From: Candidatus Gastranaerophilales bacterium
GTDB lineage: Bacteria; Cyanobacteriota; Vampirovibrionia; Gastranaerophilales; Gastranaerophilaceae
Length of the DNA stretch: 35,240 nucleotides
Assembly: GCA_944324135.1 (NCBI GenBank)
Contig: CALUVE010000001.1
Span: 1 to 35,240, forward strand
Direction: 5' to 3'
The notes beneath the pieces were generated by a model, which did no database searches, had not been told where the DNA came from, and saw only the letters and a list, made by a program, of their open reading frames with translations. Numbering within the stretch: position 1 is the first letter of the stretch; each line of letters opens with the position of its first letter. The position numbers and the translations under genes were made by a program. Of this stretch, positions 3,258 to 31,572 are shown piece after piece.

Positions 3258-3366
3258 ATGTTAAACTCTTTTCTTGTAACGATTTATTACATAATTAACA
3301 AAAAAAATTATTTTAGCGGTTTAATAGAATAAATAAAATTTTATACCTTAGACCAAGGAGTCAACT

Positions 3367-6300
3367 TTGATAAATAAAATAATACCTCAATATAATATAA
3401 AACCTGCGCAGCAAGACTTTAAAAAACAAAACTCTACCCCGCAGGGCAATACTAAAACTTATGTCCAAAATCCTTTAATGGATAAGGATTTTGCCAACTC
3501 ATATAAAAGTTATGCCCTGAGTTTCAAAGGACAAGAAGAGCTGTCCGTAAACAAATCCACAAACAAAGAAGATATAATAAAATACTATGCAACAGACACT
3601 GCTATTGATTTTATAAATAAGACAAAAGAAATAGCAAACTCTTCCGGTCAAAATGAAATAAACCACTACCACGTCATGAAAGCTGCACTTATTGAAGCAG
3701 CAGCCGTAATAAAATCCCTTGATGAAGAACTGGTAGATTACGATTCACTGGACAGAAATAATATCATCGGACTTTTTGAGGGTTATACAACAGGCGAAAT
3801 GTTCAAAGACCCTGCATCCAGAAAAAAAGTAAAAAAAGTACTTCAGAAAAAATTGCGTGAAGTTAACGGCATAATCAAAAAACTGCCAAAAGAAAAAATA
3901 AACCCGCATACTGACCATACATTATCTATAGGACTGATAAGCGATATTCTTGCATACCGTCAGAGCAGTGATGAGAGAATAGAAAATTTCAATATTGTAA
4001 ACGCAGCTATTCATCCGAGAAACAAAGATGACGTAAGAAAATTTGCACACTCTGTAATATACGAACTTAACGACATCCTGATGCAGGAGAATAGTCCTTT
4101 AAAAAATCGTCCTCATTTCAGGAAATATGATGACAAAGCACGTAATATATGGAAAAACCTTTCGCTCGGAACAAATATGTATGTGACATTTGAACCACAA
4201 AAGACAACCCCGCAGTATTTTATACCGAGTATTTACCATGTTTTGCAGGAAGAAAACAACGGATTCGGGCGTCTTAAACCGGAAAATACACATATTGTAG
4301 AAATAAATACGTCTATAAAGGACAGCTACTTGCAGGAAAAAGTAAAACGTCTTGCACAAGACAAAACAAAAACCCATATAATCTTGATGTATCCTGCCAA
4401 TATGCTTATGAATTCGGCATCTCTTGAGGAGACAAGCAGCGGAATTCTGGCATTTTCATCAGAATATGTAAACCTGATGAAAAACCCGCCGTCTAATATT
4501 AAATTTATAATGTTTGATACAAAAGATAACCTTTACAGACAACTCCAAAATCCGGTAATTCAGAATATGTACCAGAACTTTGAAGAAGCTTCTATTCCGG
4601 TATTGAGTACTGAAGATGTGATAAAAGAGTTTAAAGAACAACCCCTACTCACAAAAGACATCAAAAAAACGTTTACAAAAGGTGCTCTGGAAAAAACAGT
4701 CAAAGCTTCTGCAATGCTTGACGGGATTTTTCCGGACAAAACACAACGCCTGATGAAAAAAATCGTAAGCTACTACATTGATAAACGGGAAATTAACGAA
4801 AAAGATGTTACTGAATACGTTAAAGAAGCAAAAGACCTGTTCAAAAAGACAAACGATGACAGCTCTGTAGATATAATTTTTGATACCGGTAAAAGAATCA
4901 AAGACATTATAGGCAAGGAAGCAACTAAAAAAGAAGCCATGTCTATAGTCCGCCAAATTAGGTCAAACAAAATGGGAACAAAAGGGATAATTTTATATTC
5001 TTTAGACCCGATGGCAGGCAGCGGCAGAAAATTCACGGCTCAAGCAATAGCAGGAGAAGCAAAAGTACCTTACGTTGAACTTGATGCCAATTATTTCGGT
5101 TCCGAAAACGTTAACATTTTCGGCGAGACTTCAGCGCTTACACCGGAAGCAGCTATCAAAAAAGTTTTCTCTCTCCTGACAACACAGGCCGAAGCAAACC
5201 CTAATAAAGCCGCGGTACTTTTTATTGACAAATTTGACAACTTTATCCTCGGCGAATACCTGAACAGATTCCACCAGCGTGCAATGGCACAACTGATAAG
5301 CGAAATGGAAAAAGCCGAGAAATCAGGATTTAACATCCTTGTTGCAGGTTCAATTTCAAGAGCACAACTCGCAGTAGAGGCCGCCAGAAACTCCGTCAAA
5401 TTTGTCGACCGTCTGGAGGTTACAACTCCTGCTTTCAGCAGCAAAGAGCGTGCAGAAGTTATACAGAACGCCCTTAAAGAAAACAAAATTAAACTTGCTG
5501 CCAAATCAAAAGAAGAACGCGAAAACATAATCCAATCAATAGCTATGACCACTACAGGTTTTCCGTTTACATATCTGAAAAACTTTGTAAAACGTGCACA
5601 GGCAGTAGCACTGGAACGCGGACACAAATCAGTCGGCAAAGATGACTTTACAGAAGCTTACCTACAGATTTCAACCGGCAGACCGGCAAATAATCATATT
5701 GAACCGCACGAAAAATTAATCATAACATCACATGAATGCGGGCACGCCGTAAACATTGAAGTTATGAACAATATGATTAAAAAACTTGGCAAACCTTGGC
5801 ATATACCTGACAAAGTAAACTTTATAACCCTTGACCCGCGCGGAGTCTACGGGGGAGCAATGTATCACCATCAGGACAAAAACTCACAAAATTCATTTGA
5901 AAAATTATTCTCCAATATTGTATGCTCTTACGGCGGACATTCAGCCGAACACAATTTCTACGATATAGACGGTTCATACGGTATCAGCATTGATTTGCAA
6001 AATGCAACTGATCTGGCAGAAGCTATGATAACAGAAATGGGTCTTGGCAAACATACCGGCAAAATACACATTGACCCGTCTGACCAGCAAATATCCCCGA
6101 TGAGAAAAGCCGCGCTGGAAGCGGATATGCAGGTTATTTTAAGAAATGCTGTCAACGCCTCCAATCTCATCACTGATATCTATGCAGATTTCAACAAACA
6201 GTTTACGAAAAAATATGCAGACAGCGTAGGGACAGGCAACTGTTTGATTGACGGCGATATTTTCAGAAAAGAACTTGCTGAATGGAAAGCTGCTCAAACT

Positions 6301-6387
6301 CCTGAAAAGCAGGAGGAATTAGCTTTGTTAGACAATATTCTCTGGGATATTATGGACAAAACTAAAAAAGGACAGCTCTACAGCTAA
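3367..6387 (+). CDS. Soluble FtsH-like AAA/M41 metalloprotease with degenerate ATPase site
   Basis: This 1006-residue protein combines an AAA+ module (about residues 530-760) with a peptidase M41 module (about 775-1000), the order seen in FtsH. The zinc protease site is intact: H789-E-C-G-H793, with D876 in SIDLQNATDL as the probable third ligand. The ATPase site is not. Aligned on the shared AIAGEA segment, Walker A GPPGTGKT becomes PMAGSGRK (R554 for the lysine), and Walker B has LFIDKFD with K622 in place of the catalytic glutamate. The FtsH N-terminal membrane helices are absent; a roughly 500-residue, mostly helical region takes their place, including a ClpN-reminiscent stretch near 75-115. 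The start is TTG 3367, six bases after AAGGAG. The family likeness is solid. Whether it still unfolds proteins is doubtful, and its substrates are unknown. Confidence 0.8.
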   Translation: MINKIIPQYNIKPAQQDFKKQNSTPQGNTKTYVQNPLMDKDFANSYKSYALSFKGQEELSVNKSTNKEDIIKYYATDTAIDFINKTKEIANSSGQNEINHYHVMKAALIEAAAVIKSLDEELVDYDSLDRNNIIGLFEGYTTGEMFKDPASRKKVKKVLQKKLREVNGIIKKLPKEKINPHTDHTLSIGLISDILAYRQSSDERIENFNIVNAAIHPRNKDDVRKFAHSVIYELNDILMQENSPLKNRPHFRKYDDKARNIWKNLSLGTNMYVTFEPQKTTPQYFIPSIYHVLQEENNGFGRLKPENTHIVEINTSIKDSYLQEKVKRLAQDKTKTHIILMYPANMLMNSASLEETSSGILAFSSEYVNLMKNPPSNIKFIMFDTKDNLYRQLQNPVIQNMYQNFEEASIPVLSTEDVIKEFKEQPLLTKDIKKTFTKGALEKTVKASAMLDGIFPDKTQRLMKKIVSYYIDKREINEKDVTEYVKEAKDLFKKTNDDSSVDIIFDTGKRIKDIIGKEATKKEAMSIVRQIRSNKMGTKGIILYSLDPMAGSGRKFTAQAIAGEAKVPYVELDANYFGSENVNIFGETSALTPEAAIKKVFSLLTTQAEANPNKAAVLFIDKFDNFILGEYLNRFHQRAMAQLISEMEKAEKSGFNILVAGSISRAQLAVEAARNSVKFVDRLEVTTPAFSSKERAEVIQNALKENKIKLAAKSKEERENIIQSIAMTTTGFPFTYLKNFVKRAQAVALERGHKSVGKDDFTEAYLQISTGRPANNHIEPHEKLIITSHECGHAVNIEVMNNMIKKLGKPWHIPDKVNFITLDPRGVYGGAMYHHQDKNSQNSFEKLFSNIVCSYGGHSAEHNFYDIDGSYGISIDLQNATDLAEAMITEMGLGKHTGKIHIDPSDQQISPMRKAALEADMQVILRNAVNASNLITDIYADFNKQFTKKYADSVGTGNCLIDGDIFRKELAEWKAAQTPEKQEELALLDNILWDIMDKTKKGQLYS

Positions 6388-10023: not shown

Positions 10024-11304
10024 GTGAACCGTATTTTTGGAATAGCTATAATAATTTTGGCGTTATTGCTTGCCCCGCCGGCATTTGCCATCTCCAAAGG
10101 GGGTAAGATTAAAGCGGTTGAACTTCCTGAAAAAACTCAGGAAGTTGTTGAACTTGACATCTCCAAATCTGACACCAAACATAATAATCCGTATGAAAAT
10201 GACCGTGCTCTGGACAACGTAGATGTCGAGTTTTCTATGTTTGACAACCTCATAGATAAAGATAAAGACAGCGAGCACCCTTTTAAGATAGAAGAAGAAT
10301 CTTTATTCGGACGGATTTACAAAAAAGAATTAACCAGAACTTCGATACCGTCATATCTTTTGCAGGACGAACTGACTTTTAAATATAAAAAAGGTCCTGT
10401 GGACAAAGTTCAATTTTACGGTGCATTTCAGGGAAATTTCAACAGCTTGTTCACCCCGTCGGATTACGATACCGAGTATGATTTGAATGTTCTGGAAGCC
10501 GGTGTTATCGGTGATTTTAAAGATAAAAACACTGATTTTAAAATGCAGTTAAATTTTAAAAATTCGGAATACTACACATTTTTACAGGGACTTGTGACAG
10601 ATGCTTATATTATGAACACATATATTCCGCACCACAAAATAATTGTCGGTAATTCCAGAAACCAGGTCGGAGTTGACGGCGGTGCGAGCACCTACACTCT
10701 GCCGTTTGCGTTTCGCTCACAGATAGCCAGAAATTTCGGTAACACAAGAGCTTTAGGGCTTCGTGTTGTCGGAAATTACGACCTTGTGGACTACAGTTTG
10801 GCATTAAACACTTCTGACAGATTTTTCAGAACATTTTTTGCAGGCCCTGAATTTACCGGCTGGGTAAACTTAAAGCCGCTCGGCAAAACTGACGGAAAAT
10901 ACGGCAATTTTGTTATAGGCGGAGGCTTGAACGCAGGGCATAATAACACTGATTACGTTGTCGGAGGTGCGTATGTCGGTTATTCCTACAAAAAGTTTGC
11001 AGCTAATTTTGAATATTCAATCGCGGACGGATACAACGGACGAATTACAAGCACTGATAAAGCAAGCGGGTTTTATACAACTCTTTCCTACAGAATTACC
11101 CAGAAACTCCATATCCTTGCAAGATTTGACCAGTTTGACCCGAACAGAGACATCTCCGGCGATTTAAAAAGAGAATATACAGCAGGGCTTAACTACTTTA
11201 TTAAAGGTCAGGCACTCAGATTAATCCTGAATTATGTATTCTGCCAGAACGAAAACACTGAGGACAGCCACCGGATTATTCTCGGAACACAAATTGTTTT
11301 ATAA
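10024..11304 (+). CDS. Outer-membrane beta-barrel porin-like protein
   Basis: The 426-residue product begins with a classical signal peptide (hydrophobic IAIIILALLLAPP, likely cleavage after AFA at residue 22). A charged stretch of about 85 residues follows, then roughly 300 residues of alternating short beta strands. Features typical of porins include repeated aromatic-ended strands, ILARFDQFDPNRD (like the phosphate-selective porin O/P family), and a final strand HRIILGTQIVL running to the C-terminus. It should form a diffusion channel in the outer membrane; the solute is unknown. The start is GTG 10024, which directly precedes the signal peptide and sits 8 bases after TATAGT. It precedes the LPS-synthesis block on the same strand, consistent with an envelope role. 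Confidence 0.75.
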   Translation: MNRIFGIAIIILALLLAPPAFAISKGGKIKAVELPEKTQEVVELDISKSDTKHNNPYENDRALDNVDVEFSMFDNLIDKDKDSEHPFKIEEESLFGRIYKKELTRTSIPSYLLQDELTFKYKKGPVDKVQFYGAFQGNFNSLFTPSDYDTEYDLNVLEAGVIGDFKDKNTDFKMQLNFKNSEYYTFLQGLVTDAYIMNTYIPHHKIIVGNSRNQVGVDGGASTYTLPFAFRSQIARNFGNTRALGLRVVGNYDLVDYSLALNTSDRFFRTFFAGPEFTGWVNLKPLGKTDGKYGNFVIGGGLNAGHNNTDYVVGGAYVGYSYKKFAANFEYSIADGYNGRITSTDKASGFYTTLSYRITQKLHILARFDQFDPNRDISGDLKREYTAGLNYFIKGQALRLILNYVFCQNENTEDSHRIILGTQIVL

Positions 11305-21369: not shown

Positions 21370-21432
21370 ACCTTTTTGTTGATATACAAACCGCGTTTTA
21401 TGGTATTATTGTTACTATAGCGAGGAATGGTT

Positions 21433-23313
21433 ATGGAAAAACTTAATTTTAAAATCGAAAATTATGTAGAAAAAAAATACTACAATCAGGATTTTACTCC
21501 GATGGCGGAACTTTTGAAACGCATCAGACAAGCTTTGATATCAGGCGGAAATGTTGATATCTCAGGCATCAATCTTGATGGAATTTTTGATTATGTGCCG
21601 TCTCTGTCTTTTACTTATATAACTCTTTTTCAGGAGTTTTTAAAACCTGTCCGCTGGGGCAGCAGAAAAAAAGATTTGGCCTCCACTATTGACCGCAATC
21701 TGGAAAAAATCCGCGAGAATAAGGATTTTAGCAAGTTTGACCTCGCTGATGAAACAAAATGCAGAATAATGCTGGAATATGTTTCTGAAAAACATCCTGT
21801 AAAATATGAGGATTTGCAGCAGACAAAATTTAACGAAAACCGTTTTGAAATCGGCATAAATGGTTTAGAACTCAAGCAGGGCAATCTTTCGTGGTATTAT
21901 ATGCCGACAGATGCAGTTCTGCAGAGTCATCTGGGACTTAACGCAGTTATAAAATCACTGCTCAGAAAATCTCCTATAGGAAAACTCACAACCCGCGTGC
22001 CGGAAAGAATTCGTATTCTTAAAACCTCCGGCGAATATGAGCTGTTTTTACTAAAAAGCCGGGCTTTTGTAACGTACAATGACAGATGCGTACCGCTTTA
22101 CAGAGGAAATGTTCTCTATCCCGAATTCAGCTATGAAACTCTGCTTGACCAGTTTATAAAAACATCAGACTGGCTTGTTGACACAATGTATGAGGACGGA
22201 AGATTTCTGTACTACTATGACGCGGCAACAGACAGCCGAAAAGACCACGAACACCCTAACAGAAAAGAAGATAACCTTTATTATAACGACCTGCGCCACT
22301 GCGGCGGTGCAATTACACTTATCAAAACATATTTGCAAACAGGAGACAAAAAATATCTGAACGCCGCAAAACGCGCTATTGATTGGACAACAACAATTGT
22401 AAAAGAACACGATGTTAACGGTCAGACAGCCATATATGCTCATTACAATACCAAGGGCAAACTCGGCGGAACAGGTCTTGCATTGATTATGATGATGCAG
22501 TATAGAACAGTTACAGGTGACAAATCTTATGACAATTATATCAAAGGGTTTGCACGCCACCTTGTAAGCAGAATTACAGAATCAGGCGAGATGCTCGGAT
22601 ACTATATCCACCCGTCATACCAGAACGGCAAACCGCTTATTAATATGTCTGAAAAAGAACGTAAAGAAACATTCTCTTTCTATTATCCGGGAGAGGCACT
22701 TTTTGGACTTGCCTTGTTTGTAAAAGATTTTGACGGGGATAACGCGCTTGTCGAAGATGTAAAATCAAACTGCCACAGAGCACTCGACTGGATTGTAAAC
22801 GAACGCCCGAAAATTTACGGCGACCAGTTTACGGCACTGCCGTCAGATGCCTGGCTAATGCAGGCAATTGATACCTGGGTTGATATAGACGGGTTCAAAA
22901 AAGATGATTACATAAACTTTGTCCTTACAGATGCCAACACTATGGTTGAAAAAATGTACACAGATACTGATAATCCTTATCTGGACTATGAGGGCGGATT
23001 TTATTATAACTACGGCGACCATTATTTCCCTGACGGAGCTCGTTCCGAGGGACTGATTTCAGGCTACTATCTGGCAGAAAAACTCGGAAAATCCGAACTC
23101 GCATCAGAACTGCTTTCTGCCTGCAAAAGAGCAGCAAAAAGCCAGTTTTCACTATTCAATTGTGAAGAATGCACCTATGCACATCCAAACCCTGAAAAAT
23201 CTGCTCACTCAATTCGTTTCAAAGCTACACGCCAATGGGTCAGAGTAGATTCCATACAACACGTGGCGTGTTTCTTCATCAGATTATACTGGGCAGAGCA
23301 CCCTCTACATTAA
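21433..23313 (+). CDS. Large six-hairpin glycosidase-like protein of unknown substrate
   Basis: The 626-residue product has two parts. Residues about 1-225 form an alpha/beta region in which FEIGINGLELKQGNLSWYYM and the following helix weakly recall AMMECR1-like domains. Residues about 230-620 contain repeated helix pairs (e.g. TSDWLVDTMYEDGRFLYYYD, GGAITLIKTYLQTGDKKYL, ALFGLALFVKDF) typical of (alpha/alpha)6 barrels found in glycoside hydrolases and epimerases. There is no signal peptide or membrane span, so it is probably cytoplasmic. GAGGA at 21422-21426 fits ATG 21433 (6-base spacing) better than ATG 21427. It probably has its own promoter (TTGATA near 21379, TATTAT near 21404). Catalytic residues and substrate cannot be named. 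The 3' end overlaps the convergent gene by 9 bp. Confidence 0.65.
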   Translation: MEKLNFKIENYVEKKYYNQDFTPMAELLKRIRQALISGGNVDISGINLDGIFDYVPSLSFTYITLFQEFLKPVRWGSRKKDLASTIDRNLEKIRENKDFSKFDLADETKCRIMLEYVSEKHPVKYEDLQQTKFNENRFEIGINGLELKQGNLSWYYMPTDAVLQSHLGLNAVIKSLLRKSPIGKLTTRVPERIRILKTSGEYELFLLKSRAFVTYNDRCVPLYRGNVLYPEFSYETLLDQFIKTSDWLVDTMYEDGRFLYYYDAATDSRKDHEHPNRKEDNLYYNDLRHCGGAITLIKTYLQTGDKKYLNAAKRAIDWTTTIVKEHDVNGQTAIYAHYNTKGKLGGTGLALIMMMQYRTVTGDKSYDNYIKGFARHLVSRITESGEMLGYYIHPSYQNGKPLINMSEKERKETFSFYYPGEALFGLALFVKDFDGDNALVEDVKSNCHRALDWIVNERPKIYGDQFTALPSDAWLMQAIDTWVDIDGFKKDDYINFVLTDANTMVEKMYTDTDNPYLDYEGGFYYNYGDHYFPDGARSEGLISGYYLAEKLGKSELASELLSACKRAAKSQFSLFNCEECTYAHPNPEKSAHSIRFKATRQWVRVDSIQHVACFFIRLYWAEHPLH

Positions 23314-24521: not shown

Positions 24522-25820
24522 TTAAAGTTCTACAATATCATTTTCATTCATTTCTTCGTACTCTTCAGGGGTCACTGTATCAGGCGCTTGCGCCTCCTCC
24601 TCCAAACCGCGGCGGAGCAGAGACGGTTGTTTTTTGATTAATTTGTCATCAGCCGAGACAATATCTCTATACACGGAAGTTGTTATCAGCTGGATGGTTT
24701 TTTCTGTAGGTGCTCCCTCTTCACTGACTTTTTCCTGAATTTTATAACTTGCCCAATCGTCAGGCAGCTCCGATATTTTGAGGTAATCCTGATTTTCGCC
24801 GAGACGTTTATCTATCTCATTTTCAAGAATATTTGTTACATATTCTTTCTGAGATTCAAAGTGACACGGCTCATATACTTTTTCTCCGATAACCTCTTCA
24901 GGGTCGCGTTTTTCGTATTTTTTGAACAGGTCAGCAGCAATTTTGAGGTGCTCAAGTTCAAAACCTAAAAATTCTTCCCAGACCTGTTTAAGTTTCAGGT
25001 CTGATTCATCCTTATAGCAGTTGTAGTAGTTGCAGACCTCTGTAAATTCGTGTACAAGAAGTTTTTCAAACTTGGATTCTGTCGGATCAATCAGAGATTC
25101 ATACATTGTGACGTGCTCTTCTTCAACATCGCAAATTTCAGCATAAGTTCTTCTCAAATCGTCATTGCCGTACATAAACCCGTGTTCTGCATAGTAGTTA
25201 TGGGTTTGCTGTTCGCCTGAAACAAGTGTCAGGATGTTTACTTTTGTCTGCGGGGAGGCGGTTTCCTTATCGTACGATTTTCTAAGTCTTATTGTATTAT
25301 CATTATGATGATTCTGGGTTGGTCGGCCTATAACAACATCTGTCATCCCCTGCAAAATATCATTGGGGTCTTGCCCCTCTATCATATATTGCCACTGACT
25401 GTATCTGTACAGGTGGTCAAAATCTTCAAGCAGCCCAAAGTTAAAGGTTTCCCGTACATATTCATCAGGTTCATTCTGCGCAAGCCATGCCGTTAAATCT
25501 ACAGCAACCTGTTCGTAACCGAGAGTGGTGTTTAAAACAGACTGATCAGCAGGTCCAAACCAGTTTACCGTAGTCTGCTGCATATCTTCTATTCGTCTTA
25601 TGCGGGCGAGCAGTTGTCTCAAATCCAAATCATCGCATAATCTTGCCATACAATGCTTATACCCCCAGGCTTCTGTTTCTATACCGTTCATAAGAATTTG
25701 TCTGGTTCTTGTGTAACAGTCAACTTCTGTTTTGTTGAACGGTCTTTTTACAATATCCCGCCAGGTTCTGATTTGTTTGTCCAGCGCGATACCCTTTTCT
25801 TTTAACGGATTAAATGTCAT
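24522..25820 (-). CDS. Double ferritin-like diiron protein of unknown function
   Basis: The 432-residue product appears to hold two four-helix bundles with diiron-type ligands. Half one (about 40-150) has IETEAWGYKHC, RRIEDMQQ, TLGYEQVAVDL and LLEDFDHLYRYSQW. Half two (about 195-305) has SGEQQTHNYYAEHG, CDVEEEHVTMYESL, LVHEFTEVCNYY and GFELEHLKIAADLF. The spaced E and ExxH residues are those used by rubrerythrin and other ferritin-like proteins to bind iron and reduce peroxide or oxygen. The C-terminal 110 residues are acidic and unassigned. There is no rubredoxin domain. AAGGAGA precedes ATG 25820; a longer in-frame start lacks one. Lying near two oxygen-sensitive hydrogenases, it may scavenge oxidants, but that is inference. 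Confidence 0.65.
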   Translation of the reverse strand: MTFNPLKEKGIALDKQIRTWRDIVKRPFNKTEVDCYTRTRQILMNGIETEAWGYKHCMARLCDDLDLRQLLARIRRIEDMQQTTVNWFGPADQSVLNTTLGYEQVAVDLTAWLAQNEPDEYVRETFNFGLLEDFDHLYRYSQWQYMIEGQDPNDILQGMTDVVIGRPTQNHHNDNTIRLRKSYDKETASPQTKVNILTLVSGEQQTHNYYAEHGFMYGNDDLRRTYAEICDVEEEHVTMYESLIDPTESKFEKLLVHEFTEVCNYYNCYKDESDLKLKQVWEEFLGFELEHLKIAADLFKKYEKRDPEEVIGEKVYEPCHFESQKEYVTNILENEIDKRLGENQDYLKISELPDDWASYKIQEKVSEEGAPTEKTIQLITTSVYRDIVSADDKLIKKQPSLLRRGLEEEAQAPDTVTPEEYEEMNENDIVEL

Positions 25821-25962
25821 TTGTCTGTCTCCTTTTTGATAACTTTTATTCTGCACTTTTTAATAAATGCGTTTAAAAACACAATAAGACCAGTATAAAA
25901 TTTTTACATTACCTGAAAAGACAATTGTATTTGATTGCCGGTTATAGTAATATAAACTTGTT

Positions 25963-26887: not shown

Positions 26888-28357
26888 TTAATGATGTTCA
26901 ATTTGCTCTTTAATGGTTTCGCTTTTTTCAACATAACCTGTGAGCTGTTTCAGAGCAGCCTTGTAGCTGTTAACCGTAGCATTGCCGCCAAGGCAGCCGC
27001 CAGGGCAAGCCATAACTTCAATAAGGTTGCCGAGTTCACAAACTCCGTTTTTAGCGTATTTTTTCAGGTCACGGATAGATTGTTTATCCAAACCGTTAAT
27101 CACTACAGGGTATGTAGGCAAATCCTCCGGCAAAAGTGTCTGTACAGCTTTTGCTACACCGCCTGTGACTGCAAAATTTCTTCCCTCTTTTGACGCCTGA
27201 ACTTCAAATTCAGAGCTTTCGCATTTGTCAACCTGAGTTCCGACAGCAATAAACCATGCGCCTAATTCTTCATAGTTTAATACAAAGTCAACGTTAGGAT
27301 TTTTCATTGCTTCTTTTCTTTTTGCGACACACGGGCTAAAGAATACTGTAATAGCATCCGGATGAGCTTTTTTAACAATTTCTGCAGTGTAATACAAAGG
27401 AGTTTTTGTATCAGAGCGGAAAGGTTTCATATCAGGGATATGCTTGTCAACCAGCTCATTGTATCCGGCACAGCAAGATGTTGTCATAAATTCGGCACCG
27501 TGGAGAAGTCTTTCTTCAAATTCAGCCGCCTCTGTTTTGGTAGTAACATCAGCACCCTGAGCCACTTCTACAACATCTTTAAAGCCCAAATCAAGAATAG
27601 CTTTTCTGAGCTGTTCCGGTGTGCAAGGCAATTGACCCATAATTGCAGGAGCAAGCATTGCTACAACTTCTTTGCCGGCTTTAATATTTTTCAAAACGTC
27701 AATAATTTGTGATTTTTCATGTACTGCACCAAACGGACAGGCGCTTACGCATTTGCCGCAGGAAATACATTTTTCAAAATCAATTTTTGCGTGTCCGTCC
27801 TCATCTTTAGCAATAGCGCCGACAGGGCAGGCATTTTCGCAAGGTACGATGATTTTTGTAATTGCTTGATATGGACAAACCTGAGCGCACATACCGCAAT
27901 TTTTACATTTTGCAGGGTCAATAACTGATTTTCCGTTGATGACACTGATTGCACCAAATTTGCAGGTATTTACACAAGGTCTTGCAACACATCCCTGACA
28001 CAAATCCGTTACGTATATTCTTGCAGGTACACAACCCTTGCAGGCAGTTGTAAGAACTGTCAACGGATTAGTTTCCGGTTCAGTTCTTTCCAGAGCCTTT
28101 TCAGCCAGTGTAGACAGAAGTGTTGAATCCTCAACATCCTCAATAGCCATACCAAGACCTGCTACAGCTCTATCTTTCAAAATTGCTCTTTCCTTATGAA
28201 TACAGCATCTGTAAGGAACTTCGCAGCCTTTCGGACGCATATCAAAAGGGATTAAGCGTGTATTTTCTTCAAAATTATCGCTTAAAAAAGCTTTTATCAA
28301 TCTTACGAGAATTTCACGTTTTAAATGTGATGTTTGTTTAGGGGTGTTTATTGCCAT
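26888..28357 (-). CDS. [FeFe] hydrogenase, group B-like monomer
   Basis: This enzyme should reduce protons or oxidise hydrogen using the H-cluster. The 489-residue product has an N-terminal accessory region with PYRCCIHKERAIL (near 49), a cysteine-rich segment DLCQGCVARPCVNTC (119-132), further [4Fe-4S] motifs at 151-161, 173-177 and 197-207, then the H-domain. H-cluster loops are TTSCCAGY (292-299; the usual proline after CC is alanine), SPCVAKRKE (341-349) and EVMACPGGCLGG (447-458). Accessory layout and loops match group B enzymes of clostridia. GGAGGA precedes ATG 28357. It is the last gene of the hydrogenase operon, so its level is tied to the sensory protein and ferredoxins upstream. 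Maturases HydE, HydF and HydG are not in this window. Confidence 0.9.
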   Translation of the reverse strand: MAINTPKQTSHLKREILVRLIKAFLSDNFEENTRLIPFDMRPKGCEVPYRCCIHKERAILKDRAVAGLGMAIEDVEDSTLLSTLAEKALERTEPETNPLTVLTTACKGCVPARIYVTDLCQGCVARPCVNTCKFGAISVINGKSVIDPAKCKNCGMCAQVCPYQAITKIIVPCENACPVGAIAKDEDGHAKIDFEKCISCGKCVSACPFGAVHEKSQIIDVLKNIKAGKEVVAMLAPAIMGQLPCTPEQLRKAILDLGFKDVVEVAQGADVTTKTEAAEFEERLLHGAEFMTTSCCAGYNELVDKHIPDMKPFRSDTKTPLYYTAEIVKKAHPDAITVFFSPCVAKRKEAMKNPNVDFVLNYEELGAWFIAVGTQVDKCESSEFEVQASKEGRNFAVTGGVAKAVQTLLPEDLPTYPVVINGLDKQSIRDLKKYAKNGVCELGNLIEVMACPGGCLGGNATVNSYKAALKQLTGYVEKSETIKEQIEHH

Positions 28358-29850: not shown

Positions 29851-31572
29851 TTACTCACTCTTTTCATCCGCGTCCTTGTCGTCAAAGTCGTTTGCGATAG
29901 AACTCAAAAGTGTTTCCGTTTCTACCATATGTTCCCCTAAAAGACAAGCGATTTCCTGAACAATAGAAATGTTTTTAGAGATAACCTCGTGTGCTTTCTG
30001 GGAAATTTTTTCACGGTTAGTTTCCGATTGCGTAACATCCGTGATAACAGCGCCGACTATTTCATTTTCTTCAATAGTGAACGCGCTTATATCATAGAGC
30101 CTGTTATTGCTCGGATAACGTTCTTTATGGAGGTCTTTTCCTGATTTAAGAATTGTTTTGAAGATTTCGGCAAAATCTACGATTCTTTCAATAGCGGCAC
30201 CTTCCATACCGTCAGGACGGGCTTTAAAGATTTCGTACATATCACCTGTAAACATCCTCATAAAGCTTTCATTTGCCTCAATAATATTTAAGTTGTTATC
30301 CACCATAACAACAGCAGCCGGCATACATCTGACGAGTGCTGCGGCTTTTCTCATGGCAATCTTTCTCATATAAGATACGCACATCGAAGTCTCTGCATCT
30401 CCGTTAAGAAGAGCCACTGCCATATCGCGGCAGGTCGGATATCCGCAGCCGCCGCAGTTTAATTCATCATCTACAGAGTGCTTGCCGATTTTTTTCAAAG
30501 CTTTCAGGATATCTTCAAGCGGATATTCTTTGTAAGTAACTTCCGACGGGTTTACCTCCATATCAACAACCACAGCCGGCTTTTTCGGAATAAATTCTCT
30601 GTTTCTGATGTGACTGAGAACGTCAGAAATAACACTTATACCGGCCTTGTCGGTTGAAATAGCAGGCCCTGCAACACAACCGCCCTCACAGGCAAGAGTT
30701 TCTACAAACAGAGGTTTGTCAAGTTTTTCAGGGTCAAGATTTGTCAGAGCTTTTTCAATAGTCGGCAGCCCGCATATATTCAAAAGCTGAACATCTTTTT
30801 TAATTCCAATCCGGCGGATTGTTTCGTTCATTCCTCCGTCTATCGGGTATAAAGCGCCCTCGTAAGCGTTGTTCGGAACAAAATGATTGTCGGAATTAAC
30901 TTTTACTTCCGAACTGTCATCAATTGCATCGTGCATCCAGACTTTCAATTCTTCAAAAGTCAAAGCAACATCTATAAGATGACTTTTTGCAGCTTCGTTT
31001 TTCTTTCCGATACACGGCCCGATGAATACTATTGAAATATCTTCTCCGAAAGTATTCTTGAGCATCTGCGCATGAGTCATTGCCGGAGAACCTATAGGGG
31101 TAATATATTTGGCATATTTAGGCTGATAAAGCCTTATATAATCAACCACAACCGGACAGGCACTTGAAATAAACAATCCTTTTTCAGAAGCATTAAGGAT
31201 TTCTGCGGTTTTTATGGAAACCTCCTGCGCGCCGAGGGCTGTTTCTGAAACCCCTTTGAATCCCAATTCTTTCAGGAGTGAAATCATTTTATCTTCAGAA
31301 TATTCAAAAACCCCTTTCCAGGACGGAGCAAGCGAAACATATACATCTTTTTGTGCAAGAATAAGATTTTTAGCCTTGTCAACATCACTTCTGACGCGTT
31401 TTGCATTGGCGGGACAAGCTTTTACACAGGCACCGCAGGCTATGCAGCGTTCCGGAATAACCGAGGCGTGTCCGTTTTCAATTTTAATTGCCTTGACGTG
31501 GCATTCCCGTACGCATTTATAACAATCGTGGCATTCGTTTATTAATGTGTAGACCGCATTTTGTTTATTCAT
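29851..31572 (-). CDS. Sensory-type [FeFe] hydrogenase with PAS domain (HydS-like)
   Basis: The 573-residue protein has, in order, two [4Fe-4S] motifs (C14-C24 and C43-C53), an H-domain (about 75-330), a further cluster site (C373, C376, C381, C398) and a PAS domain (about 415-515). A helical tail (HEVISKNISIVQEIACLLGE) follows that could contact a partner. The H-cluster loops are altered as in group C sensory enzymes: SSACPVVVDYI (one cysteine of the usual CC pair is alanine), FIGPCIGKKNE and ETLACEGGCVAGPA. It probably senses hydrogen or redox state rather than producing hydrogen at high rate. AGGAG precedes ATG 31572. It lies 33 bp after a [2Fe-2S] ferredoxin gene and 6 bp before the phosphatase gene. 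Confidence 0.9.
   Translation of the reverse strand: MNKQNAVYTLINECHDCYKCVRECHVKAIKIENGHASVIPERCIACGACVKACPANAKRVRSDVDKAKNLILAQKDVYVSLAPSWKGVFEYSEDKMISLLKELGFKGVSETALGAQEVSIKTAEILNASEKGLFISSACPVVVDYIRLYQPKYAKYITPIGSPAMTHAQMLKNTFGEDISIVFIGPCIGKKNEAAKSHLIDVALTFEELKVWMHDAIDDSSEVKVNSDNHFVPNNAYEGALYPIDGGMNETIRRIGIKKDVQLLNICGLPTIEKALTNLDPEKLDKPLFVETLACEGGCVAGPAISTDKAGISVISDVLSHIRNREFIPKKPAVVVDMEVNPSEVTYKEYPLEDILKALKKIGKHSVDDELNCGGCGYPTCRDMAVALLNGDAETSMCVSYMRKIAMRKAAALVRCMPAAVVMVDNNLNIIEANESFMRMFTGDMYEIFKARPDGMEGAAIERIVDFAEIFKTILKSGKDLHKERYPSNNRLYDISAFTIEENEIVGAVITDVTQSETNREKISQKAHEVISKNISIVQEIACLLGEHMVETETLLSSIANDFDDKDADEKSE

Follow-up and report, generated by a model that had tools for sequence, protein, structure and literature searches.

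FtsH is commonly regarded as an ATP-driven, membrane-bound zinc protease. To our knowledge, the known degenerate members of this family have lost the protease and kept the motor. What, then, is encoded by a gene that keeps the zinc site and lacks both the ATPase motifs and the membrane helices? We address this question at a locus of a Candidatus Gastranaerophilales bacterium, in a stretch of 35,240 nucleotides (contig CALUVE010000001.1, positions 1 to 35,240 of the forward strand; hereafter, “the window”). The host genome is 1.82 Mb in size and 99.9% complete. The gene has orthologs of equal length, and close ones in named records come from Candidatus Gastranaerophilales MAGs, at 81-84% identity.

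3355..3360, + strand: Shine-Dalgarno sequence AAGGAG, recognized by sequence, 6 nt 5' of the TTG start
3367..6387, + strand: whole gene, predicted soluble tandem pseudo-AAA and M41 metalloprotease, 1006 aa, TTG start

In the present manuscript, we refer to the long orthologs of the 1006-aa protein within Gastranaerophilales as family A. We conclude from its sequence that the protein is a soluble tandem pseudo-AAA and M41 protease, because its N-terminal half is Clp-like, a membrane helix is missing, and a degenerate AAA domain is combined with an intact zinc site. Judging from these features and from analogy with a known protease, we further propose, with a probability of roughly 0.6, that it is an ATP-independent chambered protease of the FtsH/M41 lineage, which would act on unfolded polypeptides and use its Clp-like front as a dock. 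Our search of the open-access literature, which covered FtsH proteins whose Walker motifs are degenerate as well as any FtsH of Gastranaerophilales, returned no description of this family.

The peptidase M41 domain and its zinc site

5692..6246, + strand: peptidase M41 domain, residues 776-960
5731..5745, + strand: zinc site HECGH, residues 789-793, kept in 90/90 relatives
5992..5994, + strand: third zinc ligand D876, kept in 90/90 relatives

All motif counts given here refer to 90 aligned family A relatives, all from Gastranaerophilales and reaching down to ~25-30% identity. A preliminary description of this DNA had reported the HECGH motif and the downstream aspartate of peptidase M41; the codons, checked directly, bear this out, and H789, E790, H793, E861, and D876 are invariant in all 90 relatives. 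The Pfam model Peptidase_M41 (PF01434) matches the 1006-aa protein with 62.7 bits against a cut-off of 29.9. Of 50 family A copies, 49 lie above this cut-off, the exception being a copy in genome G232 with 27.5 bits. By homology, the protein belongs to peptidase family M41. As its M41 score (62.7-64.3 bits) is far under that of the canonical FtsH of its own genome (243 bits), the protein may have a different substrate cleft.

Loss of the ATPase motifs in the FtsH-type AAA domain

4882..5691, + strand: FtsH-type AAA domain with its ATPase motifs gone, residues 506-775
5008..5031, + strand: Walker A remnant PMAGSGRK, with R554 (5026-5028) in place of the catalytic Lys, adjoined by K555
5215..5232, + strand: Walker B remnant VLFIDK, with K622 (5230-5232) in place of the catalytic Glu
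5389..5400, + strand: arginine-finger positions 675-678 of the second region of homology, NSVK here versus RPGR

The domain preceding the protease is of the FtsH type, matching canonical FtsH with P=2e-24 versus 0.04 for Clp D2 (hhalign); in a search of the PDB, homology to FtsH is supported with E=6e-20. Pfam AAA scores 36.5 bits on the protein (cut-off 21.2), and the FtsH equivalog model TIGR01241 scores 104.1 bits, below its cut-off of 600. Direct inspection of the codons agrees with the preliminary description that the Walker A lysine is replaced by Arg554, the following threonine by Lys555, and the Walker B glutamate by Lys622. A search for relatives with the same substitutions had been suggested as a check. 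An arginine occupies the Walker A lysine position in 90/90 relatives, the motif being always GxGR. The Walker B glutamate is absent in 90/90 (N in 83, K in 5, H in 2); asparagine is found in most of the family, and lysine is confined to the genus of the window and a small number of others. The aspartate before this position is usually Glu in family A, the sensor-1 position has drifted across the 90 proteins, both arginine-finger positions are mostly Lys, and the aromatic pore-loop motif of FtsH is no longer a motif.

It had also been considered that functional Walker residues might lie elsewhere in the sequence, and we found no functional P-loop anywhere in the 90-sequence alignment. Three GxxxxGK[ST] strings, each in a single member, were examined as P-loops and rejected as chance matches inside the M41 domain. 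Judged by sequence, the ATPase motifs (Walker A and B and the second region of homology) are predicted to be non-functional. That GxGR and the entire AAA core are so strongly conserved would, on the other hand, also be compatible with a bound nucleotide, or with some remaining ATP hydrolysis through an unusual mechanism.

The remnant bears on an alternative that we hold to be unlikely, in which the protein is a nucleotide- or ligand-gated protease: the GxGR remnant would bind a nucleotide or phosphate ligand, or Arg554 would fill the pocket, so that binding, not hydrolysis, gates the chamber. G551, G553, and R554 are invariant in 90/90 relatives amid positions that vary, the AAA domain evolves slowest, and the hexamer of MtaLonC, a Lon-like protease, binds six nucleotides with no hydrolysis (PMC3391209), all of which speak for such gating. 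The kept residues may, however, merely maintain the fold, and the usual metal-nucleotide site is disfavored because the Walker B Asp and Glu, sensor 1, and the arginine fingers have all drifted.

Selection and phylogeny

We compared the window's gene with the three orthologs nearest to it. Over the entire gene, dN/dS amounts to ~0.06; the AAA domain gives values of 0.029-0.041 and the M41 domain values of 0.055-0.122. At this close range, within the window's genus, purifying selection is thus strongest on the AAA domain with the lost motifs, which therefore has a function; family-wide, the mean pairwise identity of the two domains is about equal (AAA 0.52, M41 0.49). In a tree of the AAA and M41 part, family A forms one clade with full support on a long stem (0.81), and because of this the simplest reading of the sequences is a single loss of the motor on that stem, with no later regain.

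A Clp-like front and no membrane anchor

3508..3531, + strand: N-terminal tag SYALSFKG, with F53 nearly invariant in family A
3574..3705, + strand: Clp_N-type repeat, ~residues 70-113, from PDB profile matches to ClpC/ClpB/Hsp104 N-domains and hhalign
3742..4116, + strand: poorly conserved helical linker, residues 126-250, mean pairwise identity 0.19, helices from a low-confidence model
4117..4881, + strand: degenerate Clp D1-type AAA domain, residues 251-505, no Walker motifs, D1 lid with PDK motif the best-matched part

The absence of the FtsH membrane helices, as first described, was upheld: the 1006-aa protein contains no membrane helix or hydrophobic segment, its peak hydropathy being 1.04 versus 2.8-3.2 in canonical FtsH. 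The ~500 N-terminal residues had been described as helical sequence of unknown kind, which remains apt for the helical, unassigned stretch between the Clp_N repeat and the D1-type domain and no longer for the rest. Searched against the whole PDB, the profile of residues 60-505 gave ClpC, ClpB, and Hsp104 as its top matches (best E=1.3e-9), in two collinear segments, one covering the Clp_N repeat (~70-113) and the other the lid that belongs to the first AAA domain (~388-500). Against Clp proteins of the same order, the Clp_N repeat matched their N-domains with P=3e-10 in hhalign (reversed control 0.32). In profile-profile comparison with their D1 domain, the D1 part matched with P=5.5e-5 for family A and P=8.8e-9 for family B, a second group of soluble proteins described below (reversed controls 0.49-0.6). 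The same type of comparison yielded no match of the N-terminal profile to Clp D2 or to FtsH. The long N-terminal parts of family B also match family A (hhalign P=1.4e-19), and as they match both Clp D1 and family A, they tie the chain from family A to Clp D1 together.

Single family A sequences gave weak matches to Pfam, with Clp_N (PF02861) in 5/47 (best 0.0043) and AAA_lid_9 in 7/47. The hhalign and PDB profile searches revealed one clear Clp_N repeat, of the two that make up a Clp N-domain, and no second one, and Walker residues are absent from the D1-type domain across the 90-sequence alignment. From these profile matches, the N-terminal ~500 residues are thus largely recognizable as a Clp_N-type repeat and, behind it, a degenerate relative of the D1 AAA domain of Clp/Hsp100 proteins.

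AlphaFold models built from the window's protein and three close orthologs had low confidence, with a pLDDT of 38.8 for the full-length protein and 45.7 for D1 only, because only four close sequences served as input. Foldseek with the D1 model gave no match under E 0.001; the top matches, with non-significant E-values, were mostly P-loop proteins of the RecA/AAA type. In the D1 model, strands and helices succeed one another as expected for an AAA core with a helical lid behind it, which we take as consistency only.

Ahead of their first domain, proteins of family A (window 3508-3531) and of family B (such as L098 and L103) carry a motif of the form [ILV][ST]F[KG]G, and so does a 489-aa protein that is unrelated to them but encoded in the same genome (L123:4980-6449). 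This short N-terminal motif may be a lineage-specific tag. We rejected an SFKG-like tag as a genome-wide signal, since the DNA pattern was not enriched (11 matches versus 16 in the reversed control). Separately, contig C2 of the window's own genome carries a 490-aa ORF (L125:2428-3900, - strand) with about three Clp_N domains and no ATPase domain.

Distribution and coexisting FtsH proteins

Family A is present in ~117 of the 383 genomes of the order, counting the matches listed, with orthologs reaching down to ~30% identity, and nearly always as a single copy. It is patchy inside the order, with several genera and some near-complete genomes lacking it. When we sampled more widely, with 382 genomes from the class and 386 from the phylum, no family A protein turned up outside the order. 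A scan of viral contigs returned no relatives of the 1006-aa protein, and there was no match to defence-system families. Split or truncated family A genes occur in genome G311 (contig C2, 46451-49361), G173 (contig C6, 38067-38618), and G088 (contigs C5 and C13); their sequences are signs of occasional loss in the order.

The patchiness, the split or truncated copies (G311, G173), and the loss of all ATPase motifs might suggest a decaying paralog without function. The frames are, however, mostly full-length across the ~117 genomes with family A, dN/dS is low, and the catalytic residues are invariant at 25-30% identity; we rejected a decaying pseudogene on the low dN/dS and the invariant residues, and regard the whole reading as extremely improbable.

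The preliminary description had also asked whether a canonical ftsH coexists in the genome. It does: the one other M41 protein of the window's genome, 626 aa long and bearing the motifs GPPGTGKT, IDEID, and HEVGH, is a canonical FtsH. A canonical FtsH was likewise found in 50/50 family A genomes checked, each scoring above 226 bits. Matches of the canonical FtsH type are found equally in genomes without family A. About 20 genomes encode family B, which consists of soluble AAA and M41 proteins of ~610-900 aa with mostly intact Walker A and B motifs. Within family B, a sub-clade (L103, L104, and L110) has IDD/IND at Walker B and has lost the arginine fingers, with Walker A intact; by sequence comparison, the motor of soluble FtsH-like proteins has here been partially eroded a second time, independently.

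Coexistence raises the alternative that the 1006-aa protein is a regulatory or adaptor subunit working through a partner (canonical FtsH, an intact family B protein, or Clp) in a mixed complex. Canonical FtsH is always there as a potential partner, and some genomes add a family B protein with intact Walker motifs. Clp N-domains bind adaptors, which we also count for this reading. The chloroplast FtsHi proteins, moreover, act in mixed complexes (PMC8197885). Against this stand the tandem-AAA layout, which is unlike FtsH, and the lack of family B in 47/50 family A genomes checked, the window's included. The suggestion in the preliminary description that the protein regulates a true FtsH lost ground because it has no membrane segment with which to meet FtsH, its own zinc site is invariant, unexpected for a mere regulator, and FtsH-type matches are independent of the presence of family A. 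We consider a regulatory role quite unlikely.

Gene neighborhood gives no pointer to a pathway, as it is not conserved: the commonest neighbors of family A occur in 11/89 loci. Elsewhere in the window, two proteins with iron-only hydrogenase large-subunit domains are encoded near each other (26888-28357 and 29851-31572, both - strand), and three long ORFs have no Pfam match (21427-23313, + strand, 628 aa; 24522-25856, - strand, 444 aa; 10024-11304, + strand, 426 aa).

Discussion

Family A resembles FtsH in that an M41 domain with HExxH, the conserved Glu, and the downstream Asp comes after an FtsH-type AAA domain. It differs in lacking the Walker A Lys, the Walker B Glu, the arginine fingers, and the membrane helices, and in adding a Clp_N-like repeat and a second degenerate AAA domain in front. 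On sequence criteria, the 1006-aa protein fails three features that define FtsH, namely functional ATPase motifs, membrane helices, and the family score. With Clp/Hsp100 proteins (ClpC, ClpB, Hsp104) it shares a Clp_N-type repeat and, after it, a D1-type AAA domain that has the characteristic lid, although Walker residues are missing from this D1, the second AAA domain belongs to the FtsH type rather than to Clp D2, and a protease is fused in the same chain. The family B proteins resemble it as soluble AAA and M41 proteins, and some of them also begin with this degenerate D1-like domain, but their Walker A and B motifs are mostly intact.

Two further systems invite comparison. The chloroplast proteins FtsHi1-5 keep the Walker A lysine (GxxGxGKT) and have lost HExxH (PMC8197885, PMC11266112). 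They share with family A the FtsH lineage and the permanent loss of one of two activities, yet are its mirror image, as family A keeps HExxH and lacks the Walker A lysine; FtsHi proteins are also membrane-bound and part of an import motor. MtaLonC, the LonC of Meiothermus taiwanensis, is a hexamer without ATPase activity whose Walker B, sensors, and arginine finger are degenerate, and it degrades only unfolded proteins, without ATP (PMC3391209). Here, too, an intact protease site lies behind a degenerate AAA module. The protease parts are not homologous, however, LonC having a Ser-Lys protease of the Lon fold and family A an M41 zinc protease, and LonC keeps a Walker A-like Lys and has one AAA layer only.

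The sequence of the 1006-aa protein is compatible with a LonC-like mode of working, as an ATP-independent hexamer for unfolded substrates. ATP-independent proteolysis had already been considered in the preliminary description, and we favor it as well. For this protein we infer protease activity, a hexamer, a lack of ATP hydrolysis, gating, and substrates as follows. Six copies would come together via their pseudo-AAA and M41 domains and enclose a proteolytic chamber, in which the two non-hydrolysing AAA layers would serve as fixed gate and scaffold, such that the zinc sites would be accessible only to peptides or unfolded polypeptides. Substrates or adaptors would dock at the Clp_N-like repeat and the D1-like layer. 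The clients may be cytosolic proteins that are damaged or unfolded, or else a small specific set, handled alongside the canonical membrane FtsH in a manner resembling LonC-type proteases. A more specific version, which we offer tentatively and think somewhat doubtful, is that two stacked non-hydrolysing AAA rings, one Clp-derived and one FtsH-derived, form a passive or ligand-gated sieve for the soluble zinc protease, with the invariant P-loop arginine filling or reading the old nucleotide pocket.

Family A would be the reverse of the known degenerate FtsH proteins, kept over an order of gut bacteria and supplied with a Clp-like front. It may thus offer a natural test of what an AAA ring does for an M41 protease beyond burning ATP. 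If our proposal is true, the LonC principle of energy-free chambered proteolysis would reach a second, unrelated protease fold.
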